From the NCBI GenBank assembly GCA_016191845.1, contig JACPVF010000013.1:124001-188000 (forward strand): 64,000 nucleotides of DNA, read 5' to 3'. Below, one piece after another: positions 2,538-58,891 of the stretch; position 1 is the first letter of the stretch; the number at the start of each line of letters is the position of its first letter. A program made the position numbers and the translations under genes. This stretch comes from Chloroflexota bacterium. GTDB taxonomy: Bacteria; Chloroflexota; Anaerolineae; Anaerolineales; Villigracilaceae. The notes beneath the pieces were generated by a model. The model made no database searches. It had not been told where the DNA came from and saw nothing but the letters and a program-made list of their open reading frames with translations.

Positions 2538-3275
2538 TTACTGGCAGGATATGGAAGGATCGGGCATCGTGGTGGCGGAGGTTGGCAATTCCACGGGTTC
2601 ATCCACGGCAGTAGCCAGAGACGCCAGGATGGCCTGGGCGTCGGGATAGTCCCATGCGCTGTCAGGCGTAAAAACGACTGAGAGCAGGGTATCGGGGCTG
2701 AGCGGGAAATACACCAGACGATGGGTTCCGCCGTCTGTAAGGCCATCCGTCACAGTCACAAGGACCCCATCATGGTCCCCATAGCGGACAGGCGCGATGG
2801 ATTCCACCGTCTGCTCGGAAGAGTAATTCTTGTAGATGTAGCCAATGGCCTCCTCCATGGTGAGAGATGGATCGATCCCCTCAATGGCAATCACATTGAG
2901 AGCCATCGTCCCTTCGGGCCAATTCCCGTCCACCCATTCCCCGCGGACAGAATGCGCCTGATAGAACTCCTCGCTAAAATTACGGGCGGTCATGGCGGCA
3001 AAATTCCCCTCAGGCGGCGTAGGATAGTAGCTCCAAAAACATGGCAGAGCCAGGCCATATCCAAAACGGGCGTCACGATATTCCTCCCAGAAAAGGGAGG
3101 ACGTTTGCGGCGTGGACATCTCTTGCAAAACGGGAGCAGACTCCAGGGTTGGAACCTGGGTCGGGGAGGCCGTAGCCACATCCACAGGCAGCGCGGGGGA
3201 CATCTCCGCTTGCAGACCACAGGCCATCGACAACAGGCCCAGACCGAAGAATGCGATCCATATTCGTCGTCTCAT
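2538..3275 (-). CDS. predicted lipoprotein of unknown function
   Basis: 245 residues. The start at 3275 is chosen because AGGAGAG precedes it by about 7 bases and it begins a type-II signal peptide: MRRR, a hydrophobic stretch, then lipobox LSMAC with Cys19. A Pro/Thr/Ser-rich linker (about 25-60) leads to a globular extracellular domain with aromatic segments (FWEEYRDARFGYGLALP, CFWSYYP). I do not recognise the family. Some Anaerolineae surface lipoproteins share this layout. Its promoter region is divergent from the membrane protein at 3382. Confidence 0.65.
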   Translation of the reverse strand: MRRRIWIAFFGLGLLSMACGLQAEMSPALPVDVATASPTQVPTLESAPVLQEMSTPQTSSLFWEEYRDARFGYGLALPCFWSYYPTPPEGNFAAMTARNFSEEFYQAHSVRGEWVDGNWPEGTMALNVIAIEGIDPSLTMEEAIGYIYKNYSSEQTVESIAPVRYGDHDGVLVTVTDGLTDGGTHRLVYFPLSPDTLLSVVFTPDSAWDYPDAQAILASLATAVDEPVELPTSATTMPDPSISCQ

Positions 3276-3381
3276 GTTTACTCTCCTGACTAAAGTTTTT
3301 AATGCCAGAGCAGACGAGTTCATCGTACAAAAAGTTCCCCGGTGCGTGTATAATTTGCACATCTCATTCAAGGATGACACA

Positions 3382-44884: not shown

Positions 44885-44913
44885 TTGCCAAAGAATCATG
44901 TCTCGGCTATAAT
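44885..44913 (+). promoter_or_regulatory. tRNA promoter
   Basis: TTGCCA (44885-44890), 17 bases, TATAAT (44908-44913), 16 bases before the tRNA. Confidence 0.8.
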
Positions 44914-44929
44914 ACCGCTCGCTCGATTT

Positions 44930-45003
44930 GGGCGCGTAGCTCAGTTGGTTAGAGCGCTACTATCACACAGTAGAAGTCGGGGGTTCGAGTCCCTCCGCGC
45001 CCA
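44930..45003 (+). tRNA. tRNA-Val (anticodon CAC)
   Basis: A complete 74-base cloverleaf: acceptor GGGCGCG with CGCGCCC, D-arm GCTC/GAGC, anticodon stem CTACT/AGTAG with loop ATCACAC (anticodon CAC, reading GTG), TTCGAGT T-loop, discriminator A. CCA is not encoded. Confidence 0.93.
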
Positions 45004-45004
45004 C

Positions 45005-45035
45005 AAGACCGCCGTCACTGGCGGTCTTTGTTTTT
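45005..45035 (+). terminator. terminator after tRNA-Val
   Basis: Stem AAGACCGCC (45005-45013) with GGCGGTCTT (45020-45028), then TGTTTTT. Confidence 0.85.
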
Positions 45036-45079
45036 AAAGCTTGGGAGTATAATGCGGAAATTTAATCGCTGGACAAGTC

Positions 45080-46267
45080 ATGGAACTCAATACTCAATTC
45101 GATAAGATTCGACAATCCGCCACGGTCGCGATGAACGACCGCATTCTGGCCGTCAAAGCCTCGGGCCGACAGGTGATCCAGCTTCAGGTGGGCGACCCTG
45201 ATTTCGCGACGCCCCAGTCCGTGTTGGATGCCGCCAATGCAGCGCTCAGCAGCGGACTGACACACTACGGCCCCAGCCGCGGCTCGCTTGAGCTGCGGAC
45301 GGCTGCCGCCGTTAAACTGGCCCGCGACAACGGCCTGAGCTACGACCACGCCTCCGAGATCCTCGTCACGCACGGCGGCATCCATGCCTATTACCTGGCC
45401 ATGCAATCCATCCTCAACCCTGGTAATGAGGTGCTGATCCCCGACCCCACCTGGGCCACGCATGCCAACATGGCCTCCATGCTGCGAGCGGACGTGGTCC
45501 GCGTGCCCGCGCCCGCCGAGAACGGATTCATCCCCCGCTTCGAATCCTGGGAAAAGGCGCTGACCGCAAAGACGCGCGTCATCGTGCTAAACTATCCGTC
45601 CAACCCGACGGGCATGTACCCCACTCGTGAGTATCTGGCGAAGCTGCAGGAATTTGCCGCCGCGCACAACCTGTGGGTCGTCAGCGATGAAGTGTACGAA
45701 AATCTATACTATGAAGAAAAGCCCACCAGTGCAGGCGCCTTCCCTGGCGCAAAGGAACGCACACTACTGGTCCACAGCCTGTCCAAGACCTATGCGATGA
45801 CGGGCTGGCGTGTCGGCTATCTGGCCGCGCCGTCCAGTGTCATCGAGAATGCGCTCAAGGCCAGCCAGAACTCGATCACCTGCGTGGCACCCTTCGTGCA
45901 GAAGGCCGCCGCCTTCGCGTTGACTGACGCGGGCGTGCAACAGTCCGCCACAGACATGCGTGCCGCGTATGCCCACCGCCGCGATCTGGCCATCCGCGTC
46001 GCTGCCGAATATGAAAGCGAGAAGGTGCTCGTTCAGCCGTCGAAGGGTGCCTTCTACTTCTTCCTCGACTTCCGCCCGCTGGGCATGAGCTCGGTCGAGA
46101 TCTGCGAGCATCTACTCGACGAGGCAGGCGTGGGACTCGTGCCTGGGTCCGCCTTCGGCGACCAGGGAGAGGGCTTCGTCCGCATGACGATCGCCGCTTC
46201 GGATGCAGACGTCGAGACGGGGCTGAGAAGGATCATCGAATGGGCAGAGAGGCAGGGGGTCCGATGA
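45080..46267 (+). CDS. class I PLP aminotransferase (aspartate/aromatic type)
   Basis: 395 residues. ILAVKASGRQVIQLQVGDPDF, LVTHGGIHAYYLAMQS, NYPSNPTGMYPTREYL, WVVSDEVYENLYYEE, and the PLP Lys in HSLSKTYAMTGWRVGYLAAP. This is the I-gamma (AspC-like) group, which in many bacteria also aminates phenylpyruvate or prephenate. Placed directly before pheA with a 4-base overlap, it is probably the last transaminase of Phe/Tyr synthesis. A TATAAT at 45048-45053 is a likely -10. Confidence 0.9.
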   Translation: MELNTQFDKIRQSATVAMNDRILAVKASGRQVIQLQVGDPDFATPQSVLDAANAALSSGLTHYGPSRGSLELRTAAAVKLARDNGLSYDHASEILVTHGGIHAYYLAMQSILNPGNEVLIPDPTWATHANMASMLRADVVRVPAPAENGFIPRFESWEKALTAKTRVIVLNYPSNPTGMYPTREYLAKLQEFAAAHNLWVVSDEVYENLYYEEKPTSAGAFPGAKERTLLVHSLSKTYAMTGWRVGYLAAPSSVIENALKASQNSITCVAPFVQKAAAFALTDAGVQQSATDMRAAYAHRRDLAIRVAAEYESEKVLVQPSKGAFYFFLDFRPLGMSSVEICEHLLDEAGVGLVPGSAFGDQGEGFVRMTIAASDADVETGLRRIIEWAERQGVR

Positions 46268-47076
46268 AAATTGCATTCCAGGGCGAGCCAGGCGCGTACA
46301 GCGAGCAGGCCACCTTTAACTACTTCGGCGAGGTTGAGACTCTCCCGTGCGAAACCTTCGATGATGTGTTCGCCGCCGTGCCCTCGGGCGCCTGTGACAT
46401 GGGCCTGATCCCCATCGAGAATTCGCTGGCGGGCAGCATCCACCAAAATTACGATCTGCTGCTGCGCCATGACCTGCACATCGTCGGCGAGTATTTCCTG
46501 CGCGTGAGGCATTGCCTGATCGCATTCGAGGATGTTGAGAAGAAAGATATTCAGCGTGTCATCAGCCACCCGCAGGCGCTGGGACAATGCGCGGGCTACC
46601 TGCGCAGCCTGGGCGTCAAGACCGAACCCGTCTATGACACGGCGGGTAGCGTGAAGATGCTCAAGGCCAGCGGAGAACGCACCACCGCGGCCATCGCGTC
46701 GAAGCGCGCAGCGCAACTGTACGGCATGAGAATCCTCGAAGAAGGCATTGAAGACAATCAGGAAAATTACACGCGCTTCCTGGCCATCTCACGCGCGGAC
46801 AAACAGCCCGAAGGTGAAGCAAAGACATCCATCGTGTTCACGCTCAAGAATCAGCCTGGTGCGCTCTTCAAGGCACTGAGCGTCTTCGCCCTGCGCGACA
46901 TCGACCTGACCAAGATCGAATCCCGTCCACTGGCGGGCAAGCCCTGGGAATATCTCTTCTACGTGGACTTCATCGGAGCGGTCAACGAGGATGCATCCAA
47001 ACGCGCGCTCGATCATCTCAACGAGTACGCCGTCATGCTGCGCGTGCTGGGATGTTATCAAAGGTATAAAGTCTGA
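46264..47076 (+). CDS. pheA: prephenate dehydratase with ACT domain
   Basis: 270 residues, monofunctional (no chorismate mutase domain). FQGEPGAYSEQATFNYFG, GLIPIENSLAGSIHQNYDLLL, HPQALGQCAGYL and the signature TRF at 170-172 (ENYTRFLAIS). The ACT domain covers about 187-265 (TLKNQPGALFKALSVFALRD, TKIESRP) and should give Phe feedback inhibition. It converts prephenate to phenylpyruvate. Coupled to the upstream aminotransferase by a 4-base overlap. Confidence 0.95.
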   Translation: MKIAFQGEPGAYSEQATFNYFGEVETLPCETFDDVFAAVPSGACDMGLIPIENSLAGSIHQNYDLLLRHDLHIVGEYFLRVRHCLIAFEDVEKKDIQRVISHPQALGQCAGYLRSLGVKTEPVYDTAGSVKMLKASGERTTAAIASKRAAQLYGMRILEEGIEDNQENYTRFLAISRADKQPEGEAKTSIVFTLKNQPGALFKALSVFALRDIDLTKIESRPLAGKPWEYLFYVDFIGAVNEDASKRALDHLNEYAVMLRVLGCYQRYKV

Positions 47077-47258
47077 TGTCGTTGCGAGCCGCTGCACTTG
47101 TTCTTTGGCGGCGCGGCAACCCCATTGTTACTGCGAGCATCCATAAAACATGAGATTGCTCACCTGCACTGCACCTGCGGTTTGTGCAGGTGCAAGTGTC
47201 GTCGGATTTCGATGCTTTGCATCTCAACCCTCCTTGCAATGACGGGAAATTTTGCTTC
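47077..47258. other. repeat-derived spacer between pheA and the aro attenuator
   Basis: No gene. It holds degraded pieces of the GTCATTGCGAG-type palindrome (near 47086-47110 and 47240-47250) and a clean 9-bp hairpin, TGCACCTGC (47170-47178) with GCAGGTGCA (47186-47194). A similar TGCACTGCGTGCGGCGCAAG stretch sits at about 51030-51050. Confidence 0.55.
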
Positions 47259-47287
47259 TTGACACATTCTCTCTTGATGCGTAGAAT
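47259..47287 (+). promoter_or_regulatory. aro attenuator promoter
   Basis: TTGACA (47259-47264), 17 bases, TAGAAT (47282-47287), 10 bases before the leader ATG. Identical hexamers and spacing to the his promoter at 29142-29170. Confidence 0.82.
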
Positions 47288-47297
47288 AGCGCCCAAT

Positions 47298-47375
47298 ATG
47301 AACCTGTCTCACCGCTATTATTTTGCGTGGTATTTTTACGGCTTCCAGAAATCGGTTGCCGTTGGTGGCGCTTAA
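47298..47375 (+). CDS. aromatic leader peptide (putative attenuator peptide)
   Basis: A 25-residue frame, MNLSHRYYFAWYFYGFQ plus eight more residues (ending VGGA), stop TAA. Eight of residues 7-16 are aromatic (Tyr-Tyr-Phe, then Trp-Tyr-Phe-Tyr, then Phe), far above chance. No Shine-Dalgarno; the predicted transcription start is within a few bases of the ATG. It precedes a 12-bp terminator and aroH/aroF, so stalling at Tyr, Phe or Trp codons is expected to control read-through. It would sense all three aromatic amino acids at once. Confidence 0.85.
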   Translation: MNLSHRYYFAWYFYGFQKSVAVGGA

Positions 47376-47406
47376 GCGGTAGGCAGAAGAACACGCATAC
47401 CCAGGA

Positions 47407-47440
47407 AAAGAGCGAGCCAAACGGCTCGCTCTTTTTGTTT
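47407..47440 (+). terminator. aro attenuator terminator
   Basis: A 12-bp perfect stem, AAAGAGCGAGCC (47407-47418) with GGCTCGCTCTTT (47423-47434), loop AAAC, U-rich tail to 47440. It begins 31 bases after the leader stop. Confidence 0.9.
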
Positions 47441-47447
47441 CCCCTCT

Positions 47448-47485
47448 CCCCCCATTTTGAACGGTTCTTTGTTCCAAATGGGGGG
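47448..47485 (+). other. hairpin between aro terminator and aroH
   Basis: CCCCCCATTT (47448-47457) pairs with AAATGGGGGG (47476-47485), extended inward by GAAC/GTTC. It precedes the AGGAGG box of aroH by about 15 bases and mirrors the post-terminator hairpin in the his leader. Confidence 0.6.
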
Positions 47486-47510
47486 ACCCAGGGGGGCCAC
47501 AGGAGGCTCC

Positions 47511-47882
47511 ATGACTACTCGCGGCATCCGCGGCGCGACCACTGTCACCGCAGACAACAAGGAACAGATCCACTCGGCCACTCAGGAATTGCTGACGTCC
47601 ATTCTGGAAGCCAACCCCGCGCTGCGGACGGACGACATCGCCTCGGCGGTCTTCACCGTCACCGACGACATCGCTGCGACCCACCCCGCACTGGCCGCCC
47701 GTCAGATCGGCTGGGACCTCGTCCCGATGCTGTGTGCCCGCGAGATCCCCGTGCCCAATAGTTTGCCACTGTGCATTCGCGTGTTGATCCACTGGAACAC
47801 GGAGTTGCCGCAGTCTGCCGTTCAACATGTCTACCTGCGCGACGCCGTCAAATTGCGGCCCGACCTGGCCGCCCGCGCTTAA
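47511..47882 (+). CDS. aroH: chorismate mutase, AroH class
   Basis: 123 residues from the ATG after AGGAGGCTCC; an earlier in-frame ATG would start inside a hairpin. AroH-fold segments: RGIRGATTVTADNKEQIHSAT, IASAVFTVTDDI, RQIGWDLVPMLCAREIPVP (Arg and Cys of the trimeric active site) and LCIRVLIHWNT. It turns chorismate into prephenate in the cytoplasm. First structural gene after the aromatic attenuator. Confidence 0.94.
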   Translation: MTTRGIRGATTVTADNKEQIHSATQELLTSILEANPALRTDDIASAVFTVTDDIAATHPALAARQIGWDLVPMLCAREIPVPNSLPLCIRVLIHWNTELPQSAVQHVYLRDAVKLRPDLAARA

Positions 47883-47909
47883 AAATCAGAGTTCGAAGGA
47901 GAAACCACC

Positions 47910-48962
47910 ATGATGATCATAATGAAAACCAGCGCCACCCCGCAGGAAGTCGAGCGGGTGGTCGACAGGATCAAATCACTGGGACTGGCTGCCCACCTCT
48001 CGCAAGGCATCGAAGCCACCATCATCGGCGCCATCGGCGAGACCCACAGCATCCCCACCGACCAGTTCGAGGTCATGGACGGGGTCGAAGTCGTCCAGCG
48101 CATCACCCAGCCGTATAAACTTGCCTCGCGGCAGTTCCATCCCGAAAACTCAATATTCTCCATAGACGGATTCACCGTCGGCGGGGACGAGATCGCCGTC
48201 ATCGCAGGACCCTGCTCGGTCGAGAGCCGCTCGCAGATCCTCGAAACGGCACAGGCTGTCAAGGAAGCGGGTGCCAGCGCGCTGCGTGGCGGAGTCTTCA
48301 AGCCGCGCACGTCGCCGTATGCCTTCCAGGGATTAGGCGAGGAAGGGCTGGAACTGCTGGCCGAGGCGCGCGAAGCCACGGGGCTGCCCATCGTGGTCGA
48401 GATCATGTCGCAGGTGCAGCTCGATTTGATGGTCAAGTACGTGGACGTGCTGCAGATCGGCGCGCGCAATATGCAGAACTTCAACCTGCTGCGCGCCGTG
48501 GGCGAGACGCGCACGCCTGTCCTGCTCAAACGCGGACTCTCCGCCACCATCGAAGAACTGCTCATGTCTGCCGAATACATTCTGGCGGGAGGAAACAAAC
48601 AGGTCATGCTGTGCGAACGCGGCATCCGTACCTTCGAAACTTCCACCCGCAACACCACCGACATCAATGCCATCCCCGTCCTCAAGGGACTCACCCACCT
48701 GCCCGTCATCCTCGACCCCAGCCACTCGACGGGACATTATGATTATGTAGCCGCCGTGGCTCGCGCTGCCGTAGCCGCTGGTGCCGACGGCATCATCGTG
48801 GAGGTCCACCCCGACCCCGCGCACGCCGTCTCCGATGGACGCCAGTCGCTCAAGCCCGAGAAGTTCGCTGCGATGGTCAAGCAGCTTGGACAGATCGCGC
48901 AGATCATGGACCGCAGGCTGGCTTCAGCGCACGGCTCGTACTCGCCGCAGGGTTGGGCGTGA
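47910..48962 (+). CDS. aroF: DAHP synthase, type I-beta, copy 1
   Basis: 350 residues. An N-terminal ferredoxin-like regulatory domain (about 1-75; [36 protein letters not shown]) precedes the (beta-alpha)8 barrel: [55 protein letters not shown] and DPSHSTGH. This domain order is that of the Thermotoga-type enzyme, whose N-terminal domain gives Tyr/Phe feedback. It joins PEP and erythrose-4-P, the first step. GAAGGAGAAACCACC precedes it. Confidence 0.95.
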
Positions 48963-48969
48963 TACATCC

Positions 48970-49012
48970 GTCCTGAGCAGAGCGAGCCGATAGGCAAGCG
49001 CAGTCGAAGGAC
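48970..49012. repeat. REP-like GTCCTGAGC/GTCGAAGGAC element
   Basis: Outer arms GTCCT and AGGAC with CCTGAGC and GTCGAAGG cores, related to 11986-12016. A degraded second copy (GCTTCGACTGCAGGACGG) follows at about 49045-49062. It separates the two aroF genes. Confidence 0.55.
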
Positions 49013-49113
49013 AAGGTTACCAAAATCTCATCAGTTACAAAAGCGCTTCGACTGCAGGACGGAAGAACACCGTCCCTCCGCTCAGCGCGAAAATAGAAAA
49101 GGACTCTTTCACT

Positions 49114-50154
49114 ATGATGATCATCATGCACCCAGGCGCGACAAAGGAACAGGTCGCACACGTCATCTCGCACATCGAAGAGAATCACCTCTCGGCGCAC
49201 GTCATCGAAGGCGCAGAACAAACCGTCATCGGCGCGGTGGGCGAAAGCCACAGCGTGCCCACCAGCGTCTTCGAGACGCTGCCAGGCGTGATGCTCGTGC
49301 AGCGTATCTCGCAGCCGTATAAATTAGCCTCACGCCAATTCCACCCCGAAGATTCGGTCTTCCCCATTGACGGGTTCAGCGTGGGGGGCGAGGAGATCGC
49401 CGTGATAGCGGGACCCTGCTCGGTCGAGGGCCGCTCGCAACTCCTCGAAATTGCGCAGGCTGTCAAAGAGGCAGGCGCAAATGCGTTGCGCGGTGGAGCC
49501 TTCAAGCCGCGTTCGTCACCGTACGCCTTCCAGGGATTGGGAGAAGAAGGCCTCGAATATCTGGCCGAAGCCCGCGAAGTGACAGGCCTGCCCGTGGTGG
49601 CTGAGATCATGGCCATCTCGCAGATCGAGGTCATGACCCAATACGTCGACGTGATGCAGGTCGGCGCGCGCAACATGCAGAACTTCAACCTGCTGCGCGC
49701 CATCGGTGAGACGCGCACGCCCGTGCTGCTCAAGCGTGGATTGTCCGCCACCATCGAAGAGCTGCTCATGGCGGCGGAATACATCCTCTCGGGCGGCAAC
49801 AAAAAGGTCATGTTGTGCGAGCGCGGCATCCGCACCTTCGAGACCGCCACGCGCAACACCACCGACATCAACGCCATCCCCGTACTCAAGTCGCTTACAC
49901 ATCTGCCCATCATCCTCGACCCCAGCCACTCGACGGGCCACGCTGCCTTCGTCTCGTCTGTCGCCAGGGGCGCCATCGCCGCGGGCGCTGACGGCCTGAT
50001 CATCGAAGTGCATCAGGACCCCGCGCACGCTCTCTCGGACGGTAAGCAATCGCTCACGCCCGAGACCTTCGCGAAGCTCGTCAAACAGGTCAAGTCTGTA
50101 GCCGAGGCCGTCGACCGTCGGCTGGCGGTCGCGTCGACACACGAGGCGGCATGA
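49114..50154 (+). CDS. aroF: DAHP synthase, type I-beta, copy 2
   Basis: 346 residues, same domain order as copy 1 (ferredoxin-like domain, then barrel) with the same motifs ([49 protein letters not shown]). By eye the barrels are about 80% alike and the N-terminal domains less so, which fits isoenzymes with different feedback. It overlaps tyrA by 4 bases. Confidence 0.95.
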
Positions 50155-51005
50155 GCGAGGATGGCTTTCGCCTGAGAGATGCGAAGGTCGCCATCGTGGG
50201 ATTGGGCCTGATGGGCGGCTCGCTGGCATTGGCGTTGAAAGGACAATGCGCCGCGCTGTTGGGAATCGGCCCCGACCCTGCCGCCCTGTCGCTGGCTCTC
50301 CGTCAAAACATCGTCGACCAGGCTGAGAGCGACCCCGCCAATCTGCTCCCGCAGGCGGACCTCGTGATCCTGGCCGCGCCCGTGCCTGTGATCCTTGCGT
50401 TGTTGCAGAAGTTGCCTGAGTACACATCCAATGTATGCATCGTGCTCGACCTGGGCTCGACCAAGCGCGCCATCGTCGAACAAATGGACAAGTTGCCTGC
50501 GCGCTTCGACCCACTCGGCGGACATCCCATCTGCGGCAAGGAAAAGCTGAGCCTGGCCAACGCGGAACGCACGCTCTACTACGGCGCGCCCTTCATCCTC
50601 ACGCCGCTGGCACGCACCACGCCACGCGCGCTGAGCGCTGCACAGCAACTCATTGCCACCGTTGGAGCAAAGGCCATTACATTAGATGCCGCCGAACATG
50701 ACCGCATCCTGGCTGCCACAAGTCACCTGCCGTTCCTGCTCTCGTCCGCGTTGGCGTTGGCCACCCCCGAAGAATGCGCGCCACTGGTCGGCCCAGGCTT
50801 CCGCTCCACGAGCCGACTGGCGGGCACCCCGTCGAGTATGATGATGGGTGTCATGCAGACCAATCGCGAGAACATCCTGACCGCTATTCATCGCGTGCAA
50901 GCACAACTCGACACGCTCGAAATGCACCTCGCCTCAAACGACTTCGCCAGCCTCGAAGCCACCCTCGACCAGGCACAAACCCATTATCGCCGCTTTATAT
51001 CCTGA
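50151..51005 (+). CDS. tyrA: prephenate dehydrogenase
   Basis: 284 residues. Rossmann motif [17 protein letters not shown] near 12-28, [48 protein letters not shown] (catalytic His and substrate region), [19 protein letters not shown]. It oxidises prephenate to 4-hydroxyphenylpyruvate. No ACT domain follows, so Tyr control may rest on the DAHP synthase and the attenuator. Start overlaps aroF copy 2 (ATGA). Confidence 0.93.
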
Positions 51006-51200
51006 GATACGAATTCACCAGAGACACCTGCACTGCGTGCGGCGCAAGTGTAAACAAAGATGAACAAAGATTCTTCAGCACTCATAAAACCGACTCGGTT
51101 TTCCGCTCCTCCCATCTCCGTCCATCACCGTTCATCTCTGGTTATATTGTTTTGAGTCCTCAAGCATTCCACAATAATTACCATTTACCAATTACAGCTT

Positions 51201-52463
51201 ATGCAAATCATACCCATCCCCCACCTCCTCAACGCCACCGTCCACGTGCCTGGCTCCAAGTCGCTGACCAACCGTGCGCTGCTGATCGCCGCTCTCGCCA
51301 ACGGGGCCACTCGTCTGACGAACGCGCTCTTCAGCGACGACTCACGCTACTTCGCCAGGACTTTGCAAACCCTGGGCTTCGACGTGGTCCTCGACGAGAT
51401 CAACCATGAGATGGCGGTTACAGGTTTGGGTGGAAGAATCCCCGCGCAGAAAGCAGAGTTGTTCATCGGCAATGCGGGCACGGCGGCGCGTTTCCTTTCC
51501 GCATTCCTGACTCTGGGGGATGGCGAATACATCCTCGACGGCGATGCCCGCATGCGCGAACGCCCCATCGGCGACCTAGTTCAATCGCTGACCCAACTCG
51601 GCGCCACCGTCCACGGTCAGCGGTCCACCGTCCCGTTAAAAATTATTGCGCATGGCCTGCCAGGTGGGAAGACTCAAATCGCGGGCAATATATCCTCGCA
51701 ATTCTTATCTGCATTATTGATGGTCACTCCCTATGCACAAGCCCCGATCGAGATCGAACTCAGCACCGACCTCAATTCCAAACCCTACGTGGACATGACC
51801 CTGGCCATCATGTCTGACTTCGGCGTGGACATCAAACGCAACGGCTATTCACGCTTCATCATCCATCCCACTCACTACTCTCCGCTTTCCACCTACGCCA
51901 TCGAATCAGACGCCTCCGCCGCCTCCTACTTCTTCGCTGCGCCCGCCATTCTCGGCGGAACTGTGCGCGTGGAAAACATCTCGCGCCGCTCGAAGCAAGG
52001 CGACATCGCCTTCCTCGATGTACTGCAACGCATGGGCTGCGCCGTGGAAGAAACTGATCATTGTGTGCTGGTCACTGGTCACTCTCCCCTCGTCGGCCTC
52101 GACGTGGACATGCGCGACATCCCCGACACGGCCCAGACGCTGGCGGCCATCGCGCCCTTTGCGTCCACGCCCACGCGCATCCGCGGCATCGCCTCAGCCC
52201 GCGTCAAGGAAACGGACCGCGTGTCCGCCGTCTGCACGGAATTGGCCCGCCTCGGCGTCCATGTCGAGGAACACGACGACGGCATGACCATTTATCCCTG
52301 TGATACATTCCAACCTGCCACCGTCCACACCTACAATGATCACCGCATGGCTATGTCCTTCGCGCTGATCGGTCTGCGCATGGACGGCGTCAGCATCGAA
52401 AATCCTGGCTGTGTCTCCAAGACCTTCCCCAACTACTTCGACGTGCTGGAGACGCTGCGATGA
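51201..52463 (+). CDS. aroA: EPSP synthase (3-phosphoshikimate 1-carboxyvinyltransferase)
   Basis: 420 residues. VPGSKSLTNRALLIAALA (substrate Lys), LFIGNAGTAARFLSAFLTL, GDARMRERPIGDLVQSL, SSQFLSALLMV, ESDASAASYFFAA, and KETDRVSAVCTELARLG followed by YNDHRMAMSFAL. It attaches PEP to shikimate-3-P. A 195-base gap after tyrA holds only degraded repeats and no clear terminator, so one transcript is possible. No Shine-Dalgarno is obvious. It overlaps aroE by 4 bases. Confidence 0.96.
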   Translation: MQIIPIPHLLNATVHVPGSKSLTNRALLIAALANGATRLTNALFSDDSRYFARTLQTLGFDVVLDEINHEMAVTGLGGRIPAQKAELFIGNAGTAARFLSAFLTLGDGEYILDGDARMRERPIGDLVQSLTQLGATVHGQRSTVPLKIIAHGLPGGKTQIAGNISSQFLSALLMVTPYAQAPIEIELSTDLNSKPYVDMTLAIMSDFGVDIKRNGYSRFIIHPTHYSPLSTYAIESDASAASYFFAAPAILGGTVRVENISRRSKQGDIAFLDVLQRMGCAVEETDHCVLVTGHSPLVGLDVDMRDIPDTAQTLAAIAPFASTPTRIRGIASARVKETDRVSAVCTELARLGVHVEEHDDGMTIYPCDTFQPATVHTYNDHRMAMSFALIGLRMDGVSIENPGCVSKTFPNYFDVLETLR

Positions 52464-53299
52464 TTCATCTTGGTCTGATCGGCTATCCGCTGGGACACAG
52501 CCTCTCGCCCAAGATTCATCATGCCGCATTGGAAGCCTGCGGCCTGCAAGGCGAGTACTCGCTCTTCCCCATCGCACCTGATGATCTGCAAGGACTGCGT
52601 AACTTATTGACCCACATGCGCAATGGCGAGATCCACGGCCTGAACGTGACCATCCCGCACAAGCAGAACGTCATCCCGCTGCTGGATGAGTTGACGCCCA
52701 CCGCACAGGCCATTGGCGCGGTCAACACGATCTCGATGCGCGATGGAAAACTCACAGGCGATAACACCGATGCGCCTGGGTTCCTAACAGACCTCGGAGG
52801 TCTCACAGGGAGTCGTCCTGACCGAAAGACTGCGCATCAGACCTCCGAGGTCTCGAAAGCGTTGGTCGTAGGCGCAGGCGGATCCGCACGTGCCGTGGTC
52901 TATGCCCTCACCCACGCTGGCTGGGACGTGACCCTCTCCGCCCGCCGCCCTGAACAGGCCCAGGCCCTCGCATCCGAGTATCATTTACCAATTTATCAAT
53001 TCCCGATTCCCGATTCCCAACCGCCAACCTTCGACCTTCTGGTAAACACCACCCCCCTCGGCATGTCCCCCAACGTCGGCGCCTCACCGTGGCCTGAGCA
53101 TCTCGCCTTCCCAAAGGATGCCGCCGTGTACGATCTGGTCTACAATCCACGCGAGACCAAACTCGTCCGCGACGCGCGCGCGGCGGGATTGCCCGCCAGG
53201 ACGGGGCTGGGGATGCTCATCGAGCAGGCGGCGCTGGCGTTTGAGATATGGACAGGGCATCGTCCACCACGCGAACCATTATCCGCTGCTATTTACTGA
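52460..53299 (+). CDS. aroE: shikimate dehydrogenase with inserted palindrome
   Basis: 279 residues. LIGYPLGHSLSPKIHHAAL, GLNVTIPHKQNVIPLLD (catalytic Lys), GAVNTI, GDNTDAPGFL, the NADP fold VVGAGGSARAVVYAL and DLVYNPRETKLV. Between GFLTDL and KALVVGAGG there is an extra stretch of about 25 residues encoded by an inverted repeat (52789-52853), where relatives have a short loop. Both domains are otherwise intact. It reduces 3-dehydroshikimate to shikimate. Confidence 0.94.
   Translation: MIHLGLIGYPLGHSLSPKIHHAALEACGLQGEYSLFPIAPDDLQGLRNLLTHMRNGEIHGLNVTIPHKQNVIPLLDELTPTAQAIGAVNTISMRDGKLTGDNTDAPGFLTDLGGLTGSRPDRKTAHQTSEVSKALVVGAGGSARAVVYALTHAGWDVTLSARRPEQAQALASEYHLPIYQFPIPDSQPPTFDLLVNTTPLGMSPNVGASPWPEHLAFPKDAAVYDLVYNPRETKLVRDARAAGLPARTGLGMLIEQAALAFEIWTGHRPPREPLSAAIY
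52789..52853. repeat. palindromic element inside aroE
   Basis: AGACCTCGGAGGTCT (52789-52803) and its exact complement (52839-52853) flank 35 bases; each arm is itself nearly palindromic. The length keeps the aroE frame open. Confidence 0.75.
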
Positions 53300-53313
53300 T
53301 CACTGGAGTTAAC

Positions 53314-54483
53314 ATGCTACGTTTCCTCACTGCTGGAGAATCCCACGGTCCTGCGCTGACCGCCATCCTGGATGGCGTCCCTGCGGGGCTGCCGCTCGCC
53401 CCGTCTGTCATCGACCTCGAACTGGCGCGCCGCCAGAAGGGCTATGGCTCGGGTGGACGCATGAAGATCGAGAAAGATACCGTTCAAATCTTGAGCGGCG
53501 TGATGGCAGGCGAGACGACGGGCGCGCCCATCGCGCTGCTGGTCGTCAACGATGACCACGTCAAGTGGAAGGGCAAGGCGGTCGAGGCTTTGACCACGCC
53601 ACGCCCTGGTCATGCGGACCTGACGGGTGCGGTCAAGTATGGCTATCGCGACCTGCGTCCCACGCTCGAACGCTCGTCGGCACGCGAGACGACCATGCGC
53701 GTGGCGGCGGGCGCAGTCTGCAAGCACCTGCTGGTGCAGTTCGGCATCCGCGTGGGCGGGTATGTCAAAGCCATCGGCGAGGTCGAAGCTGATTTTGGCG
53801 GGACCAGCTATGAGGTCCGCTTTGAAGAGGCTGAGGCCAGCGACGTACGTTGTCCCGATCCCGTCGCAGCCGCGAAGATGCGCGCGCGCATCGAAGAGAT
53901 CATCCATGGCAAGGACACGCTGGGCGGCATCCTCGAGATCGTCGCGCTGAACCTGCCTATCGGCCTCGGCTCGTACGCGCAATGGGACCGCCGCCTCGAG
54001 GCGCGGTTGGCGCAGGCGGTGCTATCGGTGCAGGCCATGAAGGGCGTGGAGATCGGCGACGCGTTCGAGAACGCGCGCCGCCCTGGCACGCAGGCGCACG
54101 ACGCCATTCACCTGGGCGCGGACGGGAACCTGCTGCGTCCCTCCGATCATGCGGGCGGCACGGAGGGCGGCGTGACGAACGGCCAGCCGCTGGTCATCCG
54201 CGCGGCGATGAAGCCCATCGCCACCACGCTCAATCCGCAGCACACCGTCGACCTCGCCACGGGCGAGGAAGGCCCCACTACCTACGAGCGCTCCGACTTC
54301 TGCCCCGTGCCGCGCGCCGTGCCAATCCTCGAAGCGATGGTGGCTTTCGTGCTGGCCGATGCCCTGCTCGAAAAACTCGGCGGTGATTCGATCGCAGAGA
54401 TGAAGCCGCGCTTCGAGACATTGCGGCGGGCGAACTTGCAGGATTTGCCGATGGATAACACGGCGCATGTATGGTGGCCGTAG
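53314..54483 (+). CDS. aroC: chorismate synthase
   Basis: 389 residues from the ATG after GGAGTTAAC; an earlier in-frame ATG lies inside aroE. LRFLTAGESHGPALTAILDGVPAG, GRMKIEKDTVQILSGVMAGETTGAP, RPGHADLTGAVKYGYRDLRPTLERSSARETTMRVAAG (shown in parts), GGTEGGVTNGQPLVIRAAMKPI and the two conserved His. It uses reduced FMN to make chorismate. Confidence 0.97.
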   Translation: MLRFLTAGESHGPALTAILDGVPAGLPLAPSVIDLELARRQKGYGSGGRMKIEKDTVQILSGVMAGETTGAPIALLVVNDDHVKWKGKAVEALTTPRPGHADLTGAVKYGYRDLRPTLERSSARETTMRVAAGAVCKHLLVQFGIRVGGYVKAIGEVEADFGGTSYEVRFEEAEASDVRCPDPVAAAKMRARIEEIIHGKDTLGGILEIVALNLPIGLGSYAQWDRRLEARLAQAVLSVQAMKGVEIGDAFENARRPGTQAHDAIHLGADGNLLRPSDHAGGTEGGVTNGQPLVIRAAMKPIATTLNPQHTVDLATGEEGPTTYERSDFCPVPRAVPILEAMVAFVLADALLEKLGGDSIAEMKPRFETLRRANLQDLPMDNTAHVWWP

Positions 54484-54663
54484 AATGGTAATTGGTACAT
54501 GGTGCGTGGTAATTGTTGAAGCTCCAACCTGCAAAATTTCTCACCGCAGAGTCGCAGAGACTCTTAAAACACCTCAGCGTCTCAGCAGTTCAAATTACCA
54601 ATTACCACTTACCGCTTCCCCATTCCCGATCCCCAATTTCCGACTCCCCACAACAAGGACCTT

Positions 54664-56205
54664 ATGACTCACATCTTTCTCTACGGCCCGTCGGGTTCGG
54701 GCAAAAGCACGGTGGGCAGGCTGCTGGCTGAGAACCTCGATCTGCCTTTCCTGGACCTGGACGCACATATCGAACGCATGGCGGGACAGGACATCCCGTC
54801 GATTATGGCCGCAGGCGGCGAGCCTGCCTTTCGAGACCTCGAAGCGGATTCCCTTAAAGCGGCAGTCGCTGGCCCCGAAGCGGTCGTCGCGCTGGGCGGC
54901 GGCGCCTTGCTGCGAACGGAGAATCGCGCGCTGGCCGAATCGTCGGGGCAGGTGATCCTGCTCGAAGCGGACCTCCCCACGCTGGTGACACGGCTCGCGC
55001 AGGACTCGAATCAACGTCCGCTGCTGGCGGGCGAATTGGAGAGCAAACTATCAGCTTTGCTCGAACGCCGACGTGAGCATTACGACTCATTCGCCCTGCG
55101 CGTGGACGCACCCGCCGCCGCCGAGGATGTGGCCTGGGACATCCAGCGCCTGCTGGGACGCTATCACGTGCGCAGCATGGGTGCGGGCTATGACATCCTC
55201 GCGCAGGAAGGCGCGCTGGATTCCATTGGCGAGATGCTCAAGGCACGTAACCTGGGCGGACCGACGCTGGTCGTCAGCGACACGAACATCGCGCCGTTGT
55301 ACGCCGAGCAGATCATGGACTCCTTGCGCGCGGCAGGTTACCTGACCAGTTCCATCGTCATCCCTGCGGGCGAGGCGTACAAGAATCTCGAAACGGTGGC
55401 CGCCTTATGGCGAGGATTCCTCGAAGCGGGGTTGGACCGCAAGAGCACGGTCATCGCGCTGGGCGGCGGCGTGGTCGGCGACATGGCAGGCTTCGTGGCC
55501 GCCACGTTCATGCGTGGCTGCAACTGGGTGGCCGTGCCCACTACCCTGCTGGCGATGGTCGATGCGTCGATGGGCGGCAAGACGGGCTTCGACCTGCCCG
55601 AAGGCAAGAACCTGGTTGGCGCATTCCATTCGCCGCGCCTGGTGCTGGCGGACCCGCAGGCTCTCGTCACGTTGCCCGAGCGCGAGTTGCGCGCAGGGCT
55701 GGCGGAGGTGGTCAAGCACGGCATCATCGCAGACACCGAGTTGTTCGAGCTGTGCGCGCAGGGCTGGGACGTTGTCCACGCGCGGCTGGCCGAAGTGGTG
55801 CGGCGCGCCATGGCGGTCAAGGTGCGCGTCATCGAAGAGGACCCGTACGAGCAGGGCATGCGCGCGGCGCTGAATCTGGGTCACACCATCGGGCACGCGG
55901 TGGAGTTGGTCAGCGGGTTCAAGCTGTTACACGGCGAGGCCATTGCCATCGGCACGGTGGCCGAGGCGCGGCTGGCGGAACGTTTAACGGTATCCAGCCC
56001 AGGCGTCGTCGAGCGGATCGCGGATACTTTATCAGCGTTGGGGCTGCCCATCGAAATTCCCGCAGAAATGGACCGCGCGCAACTCATCCGCGCCATGCGC
56101 ATGGACAAGAAGAAGGCGGCGGGCGTGGTGCGCTTTGCACTGCCCGTGCGCATCGGCGAAGTAAAGGTCGGCGTGGAAGTGAAGGATCTGGAGGAGGCGT
56201 TATGA
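54664..56205 (+). CDS. aroKB: fused shikimate kinase and 3-dehydroquinate synthase (AroK-AroB)
   Basis: 513 residues. Residues 1-165 are shikimate kinase (P-loop GPSGSGKS 8-15, DLDAHIE 31-37, GGGALLR 78-84). From about 167 comes dehydroquinate synthase: VIPAGEAYKNLETVAALW, ALGGGVVGDMAGFVAATFMR, VPTTLLAMVDASMGGKTGFD, GLAEVVKHG, NLGHTIGHAVE (zinc ligands) and MDKKKAAG. So one protein does step 2 and step 5. Such KB fusions are known, for instance in Thermotoga. The 180-base gap before it carries a CACCGCAGAG-type repeat. Overlaps aroQ by 4 bases. Confidence 0.96.
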   Translation: MTHIFLYGPSGSGKSTVGRLLAENLDLPFLDLDAHIERMAGQDIPSIMAAGGEPAFRDLEADSLKAAVAGPEAVVALGGGALLRTENRALAESSGQVILLEADLPTLVTRLAQDSNQRPLLAGELESKLSALLERRREHYDSFALRVDAPAAAEDVAWDIQRLLGRYHVRSMGAGYDILAQEGALDSIGEMLKARNLGGPTLVVSDTNIAPLYAEQIMDSLRAAGYLTSSIVIPAGEAYKNLETVAALWRGFLEAGLDRKSTVIALGGGVVGDMAGFVAATFMRGCNWVAVPTTLLAMVDASMGGKTGFDLPEGKNLVGAFHSPRLVLADPQALVTLPERELRAGLAEVVKHGIIADTELFELCAQGWDVVHARLAEVVRRAMAVKVRVIEEDPYEQGMRAALNLGHTIGHAVELVSGFKLLHGEAIAIGTVAEARLAERLTVSSPGVVERIADTLSALGLPIEIPAEMDRAQLIRAMRMDKKKAAGVVRFALPVRIGEVKVGVEVKDLEEAL

Positions 56206-56630
56206 AAATCCTGGTATTGCATGGACCCAACTTGAACCTGCTCGGCACGCGCGAGCCTGGCGTGTACGGCAGCCTGACGATGGATGACATCAATGCGCGA
56301 CTAGTGGAACTGGGCAAGACACTGGGCGCGGAGGTGATCTGTCAGCAGTCGAACCACGAAGGTGTATTGATCGATGCACTGCACGACGCGCGGACCTGGG
56401 CGGCGGGCGTGGTCTTCAACCCCGGGGCGTACACGCACACGTCAGTGGCCTTACGCGATGCAGTAGCAGCCATCGGCATCCCCGTGGTGGAGGTGCATCT
56501 CTCGAACGTCTACGCGCGCGAGGAGTTTCGTCATAAGTCGCTGCTCTCGGCGGTGTGCAAGGGGAAGATCAGCGGGTTCGGGTGGATGTCGTATGCGTTG
56601 GGGTTGAGAGCGTTGATGGAGGCCAACTGA
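56202..56630 (+). CDS. aroQ: type II 3-dehydroquinate dehydratase
   Basis: 142 residues, normal length. VLHGPNLNLLGTREPGVYGS (catalytic Tyr), ICQQSNHEGVLIDALHDA, VVFNPGAYTHTSVALRDAV (catalytic His), PVVEVHLSNVYAREEFR. It dehydrates 3-dehydroquinate. GGAGG precedes the start, which overlaps the AroKB stop. Last gene of the aromatic run. Confidence 0.96.
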   Translation: MKILVLHGPNLNLLGTREPGVYGSLTMDDINARLVELGKTLGAEVICQQSNHEGVLIDALHDARTWAAGVVFNPGAYTHTSVALRDAVAAIGIPVVEVHLSNVYAREEFRHKSLLSAVCKGKISGFGWMSYALGLRALMEAN

Positions 56631-56636
56631 CTTTTC

Positions 56637-56665
56637 TTGACAGCGGACTGGTTCTCCCCTACACT
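56637..56665 (+). promoter_or_regulatory. promoter of the SUI1 gene
   Basis: TTGACA (56637-56642), 17 bases, TACACT (56660-56665), 27 bases before the ATG and 6 bases after the aroQ stop. Confidence 0.7.
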
Positions 56666-56692
56666 GGAGACAATCCACATCGAGAGAATAGC

Positions 56693-57028
56693 ATGCCAAA
56701 CGACAAGAATCGCACCGTCTGGTCCTCTGATCATGGAGACCAGCGCAAGGCGGGGCCAACCAGGTTCATTAGATCCCTGCCGCCACAACAACAGACCATT
56801 TACCTGCACCGCGAGTCAAAGGGCCGTGGCGGGAAGACGGTCACACTGGTCAAGGGTCTCGTGCTTTCGGACGATGATCTCAAGTCGCTGGCCAAGCAGT
56901 TGAAACAGGTCTGCGGCACGGGCGGAACCTTCAAAGACGGTATCATCGAGATTCAGGGCGAGCACCGCGAGAAAATTGCGGAGTTTCTGAAGCAGCTTGG
57001 GTACAAAGTCAAGATCGCGGGCGGATAA
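56693..57028 (+). CDS. SUI1/YciH-family translation factor homologue
   Basis: 111 residues from the ATG at 56693. Residues 1-40 are basic and loose; about 45-110 form the SUI1 fold: YLHRESKGRGGKTVTLVKGL, LKSLAKQLKQVCGTGGTFKD, IEIQGEHREKIAEFLKQLGY. SUI1 is eukaryotic and archaeal (a)IF1; bacterial YciH proteins are sporadic and may affect start-site choice. That is worth noting beside the many apparently leaderless genes here. Own promoter. Confidence 0.92.
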   Translation: MPNDKNRTVWSSDHGDQRKAGPTRFIRSLPPQQQTIYLHRESKGRGGKTVTLVKGLVLSDDDLKSLAKQLKQVCGTGGTFKDGIIEIQGEHREKIAEFLKQLGYKVKIAGG

Positions 57029-57050
57029 TCCACTTCGAAAAGAGGAAAAC

Positions 57051-57674
57051 ATGAATAGTCCCGAAGTCACCCAAATGGCATTGAGCATCCTGCGCAAAGG
57101 GGATAACTTCCAGTGGTATGTGATTACCCTGCTGGCACTGGTCGTTTATGTGTACACAAACGAGGTCGCCAAGAAGAATTGGAAGGGCATCGCGGCGGGA
57201 CTTGCACTGTATTCCGTGCACTGGTTCTATGAGATCCTCAACGCGTTGATCCAACACTTCAGCGGCCACGCCCTATGGACCGTCCCGACTGGCACGGCAT
57301 TTTTACTATTGATCGGTGTGGGCATCGAATTGAGTTTCATGTTTTCCATCGCAGGCCTGGTGATGAGCAAACTTTTACCTGCGGATCCCAGTCTGAAAAT
57401 TCTGGGCATCAACAATCGCCTGCTCTTTGCGGTCGGTAACGCGGCTTTTTTCTCTATTGTGGAAATCTTCCTGGCTAAAACACCCGCCTTCGTTTGGGTC
57501 TATCCGTGGTGGGGTGCTTTCCCCGTTTTCGTCACCGTGTATATCCCCTTTTTCCTGGCGGCCTTCTATTGCCATGACTGGAAGCCGAGGGCGCAGATCA
57601 CTTTTATCAGTTCGGTTGCCGCCGTGGACATCCTTGCAGTGATTGTTTTTGCTGGCATCCTGAAGTGGATCTAG
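57051..57674 (+). CDS. polytopic membrane protein of unknown function
   Basis: 207 residues from the ATG after AGAGGAAAAC. About six hydrophobic spans (20-36, 44-62, 78-104, 120-140, 150-175, 180-204) with aromatic-rich sequence (YSVHWFYEILNALIQHF, WVYPWWGAFPVFV). I recognise no family. It follows the SUI1 gene by 22 bases; the 3' end overlaps the convergent diguanylate cyclase by 4 bases. Confidence 0.7.
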   Translation: MNSPEVTQMALSILRKGDNFQWYVITLLALVVYVYTNEVAKKNWKGIAAGLALYSVHWFYEILNALIQHFSGHALWTVPTGTAFLLLIGVGIELSFMFSIAGLVMSKLLPADPSLKILGINNRLLFAVGNAAFFSIVEIFLAKTPAFVWVYPWWGAFPVFVTVYIPFFLAAFYCHDWKPRAQITFISSVAAVDILAVIVFAGILKWI

Positions 57675-58891
57675 GCCGACGCCTGCTCCATTCCCTCATC
57701 CCAAATCGTTACACAGTTGCGTCCTGCGGCCTTCGAACGATACAAGGCCTGGTCCGCTTTGAGGATTACCTCCTCGGCAGTGCCCCCATGTGTCGGATAC
57801 GCAGCTACCCCGAAAGACATGGTTACTTGCAGATTCGCCCCATTGTACTGAATGAACAACTCGGCGCACTTCTCTCGGATGATCTCCGCCCGCTTACAGG
57901 CAGAAGTGGCATCTGCCCCAGGCAGTACCAGTAGGAATTCTTCACCGCCGTAGCGACAAACTACGTCATAACCACGCACGTAAGCCTTCAGAAGACTGGC
58001 AATCTGAACCAGGAATCGGTCTCCAACCTGGTGCCCGTAAAGATCATTGACCTTCTTGAAATAGTCGATATCTGAAATGATGACACTCAAATGCCTGCCC
58101 TCACGCTCACTGCGGGCGATTTCGCGCGTCACGGCCTCATCCAGATAGCGGCGGTTGTACAGACCCGTCAGCGGGTCACGCAGTACCTGTTCACGCAATT
58201 CTGACTGGAGTTGTTCAATCTCGGCTAGGTGAATGCGCAACTGTTGATTCGCATCCTTGAGCGCCTCCTCAGCCCGTTTGCGCTCCGTTTCAACTCGCTC
58301 GCGCTCTGCAATCTCTTTTTCCGCGCGGGACAGGGCCCGCTGCATAACACGCATCGCATACAGGGATAGGCCGCCCGTCACAGCGAACAGACCCGTATAT
58401 GTAAACCATTGCGTCAGATTGACCGTGTAATCAGGCGTGGGCAACAAGCCTGCGTTTTCTGCTACGATCAACCCCAAGACTGCCATCGAACTTGCCAAAG
58501 TAGAGAACAGAAAACCTTTCCAACCGAAAAGCACTCCTGCAACGATCACTATCACGATATAGTTTCCTGTAGTGGGAGTTCGAATGGTACCCAGATTTAT
58601 GGCGGCCAGGGTTATCCAAACAAATGCGAGGATTTCCAGAATTCCACCTACCAATATGAGGTTTCCTCGTTGCAACCACTTGCGCAACAATAGCAGGAAT
58701 GCTGAACCAAATACATTTAAGAGGATCAAATTGATGGAAAAATTTTCCCCGAAAAATTCAATGAGGATCAGAATCACGCTATAAAACCAAACAGCTGTCA
58801 AAATGGCGGTGAGCAGGGCAGCCTGCCTCGTCTTCTCGCCATCGCCTTCGAACATGGGCGGATCAAACCACTGCTTGATCATGTTCAACAT
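57671..58891 (-). CDS. membrane-bound diguanylate cyclase (GGDEF)
   Basis: 406 residues. Six N-terminal membrane spans (about 22-190), then a coiled coil (SRAEKEIAERERVETERKRA, then about 40 residues), then a GGDEF domain with DPLTGLYNRRYLDEAV and active-site YGGEEFLLVLPG (GGEEF is an active variant). It has no EAL. The membrane part resembles sensor modules of the MASE type. It makes c-di-GMP from GTP; the signal is unknown. Confidence 0.9.
   Translation of the reverse strand: MLNMIKQWFDPPMFEGDGEKTRQAALLTAILTAVWFYSVILILIEFFGENFSINLILLNVFGSAFLLLLRKWLQRGNLILVGGILEILAFVWITLAAINLGTIRTPTTGNYIVIVIVAGVLFGWKGFLFSTLASSMAVLGLIVAENAGLLPTPDYTVNLTQWFTYTGLFAVTGGLSLYAMRVMQRALSRAEKEIAERERVETERKRAEEALKDANQQLRIHLAEIEQLQSELREQVLRDPLTGLYNRRYLDEAVTREIARSEREGRHLSVIISDIDYFKKVNDLYGHQVGDRFLVQIASLLKAYVRGYDVVCRYGGEEFLLVLPGADATSACKRAEIIREKCAELFIQYNGANLQVTMSFGVAAYPTHGGTAEEVILKADQALYRSKAAGRNCVTIWDEGMEQASA

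Follow-up and report, generated by a model that had tools for sequence, protein, structure and literature searches.

A probable ribosome-mediated transcription attenuator with an aromatic leader peptide ahead of the shikimate operon in Chloroflexota

Several described leader-peptide systems resemble the locus reported here. As summarized in a passage of a review (Neshat et al. 2014, via PMC11802643), the attenuator of aroR-aroF in C. glutamicum has a leader peptide containing Phe-Tyr-Phe, and Tyr availability had no effect on it; the review also states that pheL controls pheA. The uORFC-13-1 motif of Acholeplasma, as outlined in part of PMC8632094, consists of a predicted upstream ORF (uORF) with a ribosome-binding site and at least one Phe codon, and has 24 representatives from one genus and environmental sequences. 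The trpL leader mRNA of S. meliloti starts at the leader ATG and is thus leaderless, according to sections of PMC7298713. For the four Rfam attenuator motifs, parts of PMC3766115 put forward a possible gamma-proteobacterial origin of amino acid attenuators, with few transfers. Our literature search, which covered few subscription papers, found no attenuator described in Chloroflexota, in line with the preliminary description of the locus, which knew of none in this group.

We report a locus of a Chloroflexota bacterium that, judging from its sequence and from modeling of its RNA, very probably represents a classical ribosome-mediated transcription attenuator for a whole shikimate operon. It is new for the phylum as far as the literature could be searched, its mixed sensor is unusual and its target is unusually broad. 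As in the C. glutamicum aroR system, a leader peptide precedes a DAHP-synthase operon and stalling would raise transcription; unlike in that system, as far as the review passage describes it (PMC11802643), the Chloroflexota leaders carry 4 to 9 aromatic residues in 10, the operon of many genomes covers the complete route to chorismate together with tyrA, and the phylum is another one. The likeness is one of logic, the two systems being set side by side by description. Also compared by description, the uORFC-13-1 motif resembles our locus in that a predicted uORF coding for Phe and a terminator lie upstream of aroF, whereas the Chloroflexota leader is apparently near-leaderless in the order, mixes Phe, Tyr and Trp codons and occurs in several classes (part of PMC8632094). 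A leaderless or nearly leaderless start would be shared with S. meliloti trpL, a Trp sensor of trpE(G) in the sections of PMC7298713 that describe it.

A permissive Rfam search at the leader yielded subthreshold matches only, the relevant one being Phe_leader (RF01859), the family of proteobacterial pheL. Its covariance model aligned end to end over positions 47303 to 47438 but scored 21.2 bits versus a threshold of 55, and by that model the leader is no member of the family. pheL is built as a 1-2-3-4 switch, and the elements described below are numbered in the same manner.

The window, i.e., the whole 64,000-nucleotide stretch that was analyzed, contains a sigma-70-type promoter, TTGACA-17-TAGAAT, at positions 47259 to 47287 of the plus strand, on which all features of the locus lie. 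Direct reading gives a −35 box at 47259 to 47264 and a −10 box at 47282 to 47287, separated by 17 nucleotides (nt), with 11 of 12 matches to the consensus. The leader ATG follows 10 nt past the −10 box, at 47298, a gap that recurs in relatives, and opens an ORF of 25 codons (47298 to 47375) coding for MNLSHRYYFAWYFYGFQKSVAVGGA. Its codons 7 to 16 (47316 to 47345) read YYFAWYFYGF, eight aromatic residues in ten. In the 64 kb, on both strands, this is the one ORF of 12 to 45 codons with at least six aromatic residues in ten; 60 dinucleotide-preserving shuffles gave a mean of 0.12 and a maximum of 2 such ORFs, and none with at least seven in ten.

Four RNA segments can be delineated between the aromatic run and the first gene. 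Segment 1, UACGGC (47337 to 47342), lies at the end of the run and can pair with GCCGU in the 5′ part of segment 2. Segment 2, GCCGUUGGUGGCGCUU (47358 to 47373), enters the leader stop codon UAA (47373 to 47375), which marks its 3′ end. Segment 3, AAAAGAGCGAGCCAAAC (47406 to 47422), forms the 5′ arm and loop of the terminator and is common to terminator and antiterminator, and segment 4 (47423 to 47436) provides the 3′ arm and U-run. The resulting U-tailed intrinsic terminator, AAAAGAGCGAGCC-AAAC-GGCTCGCTCTTTTT (47406 to 47436), is part of a hairpin of −23.0 kcal/mol when folded alone. A simple scan of 44900 to 57800 did not list it, probably because the U-run is drawn into the stem. The region from 47280 to 47520 folds with a z score of −5.4, a value that also includes a second strong hairpin at 47441 to 47495. 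That additional hairpin, CCCCCCATTTTGAAC / GTTCCAAATGGGGGG, lies between the terminator and the ribosome-binding site of aroH. The other genome of the genus has a similar one, and other relatives have different hairpins at this place; we considered a dispersed repeat, but in its own genome the hairpin matches only itself, as a single copy. The promoter, the leader with its 8 aromatic residues, the terminator and the aroH and aroF genes behind it were all found where the preliminary description had placed them.

Nine same-strand genes follow between 47511 and 56630, which bears out the run of eight or nine proposed earlier. They begin with aroH for chorismate mutase, the first gene of the controlled operon (47511 to 47882, TIGR01796), followed by two copies of aroF for DAHP synthase (47910 to 48962 and 49114 to 50154, both TIGR01361) and by tyrA for a prephenate/arogenate dehydrogenase (50151 to 51005), whose assignment is below the curated cutoffs of the models. 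Next come aroA for EPSP synthase (51201 to 52463, TIGR01356), aroE for shikimate dehydrogenase (52460 to 53299, TIGR00507), aroC for chorismate synthase (53317 to 54483, TIGR00033), aroKB for a shikimate kinase/dehydroquinate synthase fusion (54664 to 56205), and aroQ for type II dehydroquinase (56202 to 56630). In the scan of 44900 to 57800, no further forward promoter-like site was found between 47259 and 56637, and no plus-strand terminator-like site of more than 5 pairs from aroH to the end of aroQ. Directly past aroQ, a promoter-like TTGACA-17-TACACT (56637 to 56665) precedes a SUI1/YciH-type gene (56693 to 57028), and the run may therefore end at aroQ. An aminotransferase gene (aspC) and pheA lie immediately upstream of the leader, pheA ending about 220 nt before it. 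The order aroH-(pheA)-aroF-tyrA-aroA-aroE-aroC-aroKB-aroQ recurs at many of the named loci, and aroH-aroF alone was seen at L061, L064, L065, L068 and L070. The same-genus genome (L047), L063 and L074 likewise have two adjacent DAHP synthase paralogues; elsewhere, most named loci with the operon have a single one.

Comparison with relatives was made in 61 genomes covering the organism itself and its genus, family and order, in 46 of which aroH was found. An aromatic-run ORF followed by a terminator precedes aroH at 44 of these 46 loci, so that in related genomes the aromatic codon cluster has been kept together with the terminator. The run has at least six aromatic residues in ten in 41 of the 44 leaders, five at L005 and L034, and only four at L026, which was accepted nonetheless. 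All 44 loci have the terminator between the leader and the first structural gene. The two aroH loci of the order that lack the leader are L036 and L043. In the L043 genome, a covariance model places the leader directly before aroF-tyrA, and aroH adjoins pheA; in the L036 genome, aroH lies downstream of a T-box and a Trp/Tyr-class aminoacyl-tRNA synthetase gene (L203). This model, built from 17 leaders and run on the 61 genomes, gave matches with E values below 1e-6 in 40 of them and in none of the 15 genomes without aroH. Eight more genomes had weaker matches only (E, 7.7e-5 to 0.054), among which two are the aroH leader (G021 and G058) and two are a Thr leader before lysC (G038 and G045).

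Records from a further three classes of the phylum also contain similar leaders followed by a terminator. Among 34 named loci, 28 are from Chloroflexota by title, and the leader was identified at 22 of those 28 and at none of the 6 from other phyla. The leader-bearing records include Chloroflexales, Chloroflexaceae, Ardenticatenia, Ardenticatenaceae, Caldilineaceae and Thermoflexales. At 24 of the 34 loci there was an ORF with at least five aromatic residues in ten, and L058 and L079 were left out of the count to give 22. A search of the phylum found aroH in 158 of 301 genomes; 59 further loci were examined (L081 to L139), 26 of which had an ORF with at least five aromatic residues in ten, and 25 of these, 8 of them from the same order, were counted as leaders, L137 being left out. 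The ORFs at L058, L079 and L137 lack the attenuator architecture, were judged chance ORFs and were dropped. With the duplicates L047, L049, L071 and L081 also removed, the phylum-level set went from 94 to 87 loci. After this removal of seven, a terminator was found at 85 of the 87; it was not found at the leader loci L068 and L114. L072 and L076 have weak, mutually similar YYY-containing ORFs, MIKRGLARATAFDYYYPNCIDRSG and MIERSLARAIALDYYYCPNCIDRSG, about 95 to 180 nt upstream of aroH, which could be a reduced Tyr leader.

An antiterminator pairing that excludes the terminator, on the possibility of which the preliminary description had made its proposal depend, does exist. The partner of segment 2 (GCCGUUGGUGGCGCUU) is AAGAGCG.AGCCAAACGG, which comprises the 5′ arm of the terminator and its loop. 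Over the 44 loci of the order, the duplex of segments 2 and 3 had a mean energy of −21.2 kcal/mol, compared with −16.1 kcal/mol for shuffled segment 2. Half of these duplexes (22/44) were in the lowest 5% of their own shuffles, and nine were outside the lowest 20% (L005, L015, L023, L029, L030, L032, L038, L040 and L044). When segments were swapped between families within the order, the foreign combinations were often as good as the native ones because both segments are conserved there; six loci (L021, L022, L027, L039, L041 and L045) outperformed every swap. A stronger test used 34 diverged representatives whose segments 2 are less than 60% alike. Their own pairs averaged −22.16 kcal/mol versus −17.76 for swapped pairs, a difference not equaled in any of 100,000 permutations, and −16.46 for shuffled segment 2. 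The native pair was better than the shuffled mean at 31 of the 34 loci and in the lowest 5% at 20. The effect persisted after row/column centering (−4.3 kcal/mol) and after matching for GC content and length (−5.0 kcal/mol; own pair better at 27 of 29). The pairing was weak at L056, L091, L101 and L106.

At 70 of 85 loci, the duplex of segments 2 and 3 reaches to within 6 nt of the stop codon, to the stop itself or beyond it. Of the 44 leader ends in the order, 25 are in an AVGGA-type frame, at least 5 read the same segment 2 RNA in another frame, and 14 fit neither. Because a MAFFT alignment of all 44 leaders misregisters the terminator, covariation of the helices was counted on a subset of 17 of the 44 sequences, and the 2:3 pairing was tested by the duplex swaps. 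In the 17-row alignment, one pair of the helix of segment 1 with segment 2 occurs as C-G, U-G or U-A, and 6 of the 12 pairs of the terminator helix have changed on both sides. RNAalifold predicted a further hairpin of the 3′ half of segment 2 with bases following the stop, in which 3 of 6 pairs have changed on both sides; this hairpin, although dispensable to the four-segment model, would likewise sequester segment 2 in the absence of a ribosome. Together, the three helices surpassed all 500 shuffles in percentage paired, in pairs and cells changed on both sides and in covariation score, and all but 9 of 500 in further pair types. On sequence grounds, a mutually exclusive antiterminator pairing is supported by covariation among diverged lineages, with variation among individual loci.

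The effect of ribosome position was modeled by masking the nucleotides that a ribosome would cover and folding the RNA as far as the loop of the terminator. For the window leader, the predicted antiterminator occupancy was 0.58 for a ribosome stalled in mid-run, 0.26 for one at the last aromatic codon, 0.01 for one at the stop and 0.00 for ribosome-free RNA; the means over 85 loci, in this order, were 0.60, 0.48, 0.08 and 0.24. Occupancies of at least 0.5 upon stalling and at most 0.2 at the stop were obtained jointly at 61 of the 85 loci, including that of the window, and not at the other 24. With shuffled segment 2 the mid-run occupancy was still 0.37, and the real value was above the control at 77 of 85 loci. 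At 23 of 85 loci, including L061, L064, L065 and L070, the antiterminator was predicted also without ribosome. For the complete leader at equilibrium, the terminator prevails on average in every ribosome state (0.93 to 0.96), with L010, L089 and L102 as exceptions, and the switch must therefore be kinetic and decided during transcription. The attenuator of the E. coli trp operon is thought to be likewise decided in the course of transcription. Folding thus predicts antitermination upon stalling at the aromatic codons, and termination with the ribosome at the stop or in its absence.

The following sequence of events can be envisaged, which agrees with the logic of ribosome-mediated attenuation proposed in the preliminary description. 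RNA polymerase would start just 5′ of the leader ATG, and a ribosome would begin on an almost leaderless mRNA. When tRNA charged with Phe or Tyr, and here also Trp, is short, the ribosome would stall in codons 7 to 16 and cover segment 1, leaving segment 2 (47358 to 47373) free to pair with segment 3; transcription would then proceed into the nine aro genes before the terminator can form. With plentiful charged aromatic tRNAs, the ribosome would reach the stop at the end of segment 2 and mask that segment, and segments 3 and 4 would form the terminator. If no ribosome has been loaded, segment 1, and perhaps also the bases after the stop, would hold segment 2 and the terminator would likewise form. 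We infer translation, stalling and the effect on transcription from the sequence elements, their conservation, the covariation of the alternative pairings at the 34 diverged loci and the modeled switching.

As regards initiation, a scan of 94 leader ORFs, with chance ORFs and duplicates still included, found a recognizable promoter for 71. The gap between the end of its −10 box and the ATG is exactly 10 nt in 33 cases and 6 to 11 nt in 52; some promoters were missed where an ATG too far upstream had been taken, including the window's own, whose true gap is 10 nt. Transcription usually starts 6 to 8 nt past the −10 box, and the Anaerolineales leader mRNA would thus have just a few untranslated bases. 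A Shine-Dalgarno-like stretch was found before few of these ORFs. At L064, L065, L068, L070, L109 and L110, the gap is 35 to 41 nt and a purine-rich stretch lies ahead of the ATG.

The nature of the codons indicates which amino acids may be sensed. In the densest ten-codon windows of the 44 order leaders, 316 of 440 codons are for Phe, Tyr or Trp, a proportion inflated by choosing these windows for their density, and Leu, Cys and Ile codons, which are one base from aromatic codons, number 1, 1 and 2, a contrast between neighboring codons that this choice does not inflate; reading in frame +2 would give 203 Leu. These sequence data argue that selection acts on the reading frame, that the codons matter as codons, and that the three aromatic residues are largely interchangeable. 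Phe and Tyr are both present in the densest window of all 85 leaders with a terminator, and Trp in 37; within the order, Trp occurs in the run of 20 of 44 leaders. The window leader has one Trp codon, W11, and the leader of the other genome of the genus (L002) has none. The earlier proposal that the leader reads all three aromatic amino acids thus holds for the window leader, literally, as codon content, and is not general among the leaders; the conserved sensor, as far as codons tell, is Phe/Tyr. T-boxes before some trp genes suggest that Trp supply is in part under a control of its own, and this would account for the optional nature of Trp codons in the aro leader.

Other explanations of the conserved ORF were weighed against this evidence. 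TnaC is a leader peptide of the nascent-peptide arrest type, and the aromatic leader might similarly stall the ribosome on a free aromatic amino acid, rather than through starvation at the codons. A Tyr-Gly (YG) after the run, common in the order, would fit such a peptide; however, YG is absent, e.g., from L034, L039, L045, L064 and L070, F, Y and W replace one another freely within the run, and the residues that follow are encoded in two different frames across species, which makes arrest by the peptide improbable. The in-frame conservation of aromatic residues might also denote a small hydrophobic protein with a function of its own next to an ordinary terminator, and leader peptides can act in trans, as peTrpL does in the sections of PMC7298713 that deal with it. 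Yet what is conserved, in peptides of 20 to 29 amino acids in the order, is a residue class and not one sequence; the DNA beyond the run is retained whichever frame is read, and the terminator follows with its pairing to the end of the ORF. We consider this explanation highly improbable; the leader peptide might act in trans in addition to attenuation.

Control by a riboswitch or T-box, with the ORF incidental, derives some plausibility from the T-boxes that occur in the phylum, before an aminoacyl-tRNA synthetase gene just upstream of aroH (L203) and before trp genes (L072 and L076). At the window leader, though, no Rfam family, the T-box family RF00230 included, reaches its threshold, and at the gathering threshold 12 other leader loci matched only two 6S RNAs located elsewhere in the locus; there is very little probability that this explanation is correct. 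Finally, since pheA ends only about 220 nt upstream, the ORF could have arisen by chance beside the terminator of the aspC-pheA pair. The promoter in between, the chance statistics and the conservation at 44 of 46 loci speak against it, and we deem it extremely unlikely. Ribosome-mediated attenuation remains our preferred explanation.

Other leaders of amino acid genes were sought in the same genomes. In the genome of the window, a leader with Thr and Met codons, MNHFFGMTMTMTTPRRLRRDSLVGPA, followed by a terminator, lies before an aspartate kinase gene (L217, G000:C7, locus positions 1313 to 1393), with a promoter, identified by eye, at like spacing. Its alternative pairing, computed for this locus alone, has an energy of −24.0 kcal/mol, and 1 of 500 shuffles was as low. 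The Thr threshold was passed at 14 of 22 lysC loci of the order, among which L225 looks like chance; L209, just below, looks real. Among 22 ilvB loci, one ILV leader was plausible: at L257 (G045:C325), MSISIIVVLVVLIELLIVKG..., 288 to 186 nt upstream of ilvB, is followed by a terminator-like hairpin and is likely a branched-chain attenuator. L248 was over the threshold and was judged chance. No convincing Trp-rich leader was found before trpE at 12 loci; the candidate at L152 reached the threshold but has a TTG start and resembles a piece of coding sequence. T-boxes were present at 3 of the 12 trpE loci of the order, in two cases directly before trpE (L143, positions 2071 to 2395, and L147, positions 2985 to 3278), and absent from the trpE locus of the window's own genome (L148). 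Further T-boxes lie at positions 2830 to 3065 of L203, linked through the Trp/Tyr-class synthetase gene to aroH, and at 288 to 537 of L072 and 311 to 561 of L076, associated with trp genes.

These observations raise the idea, for and against which we see the chances evenly balanced, that Chloroflexota possess an attenuation regulon of their own, anciently established, in which one RNA build would serve with Phe, Tyr and Trp codons for the whole shikimate pathway and with Thr and Met codons for aspartate kinase, at least some trp genes being under T-boxes. The shared build would consist of a near-leaderless ORF, an antiterminator arm located at the stop codon of this ORF or close to it, and a terminator loop included in the antiterminator. 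If true, this would contradict the gamma-proteobacterial origin suggested in parts of PMC3766115.

Classical attenuation would extend to a further phylum, here through a mixed Phe/Tyr(/Trp) sensor that would govern the common aromatic pathway rather than a single terminal branch. The attenuator also represents a covariation-supported RNA element beyond the reach of any Rfam model. It opens to experiment the questions of how several amino acids are integrated by a single leader, whether the position of a codon in the run sets its weight, and whether attenuation originated repeatedly. The variable presence of Trp in the run, and the placement of aroH behind T-box-linked genes in relatives, provide natural experiments.
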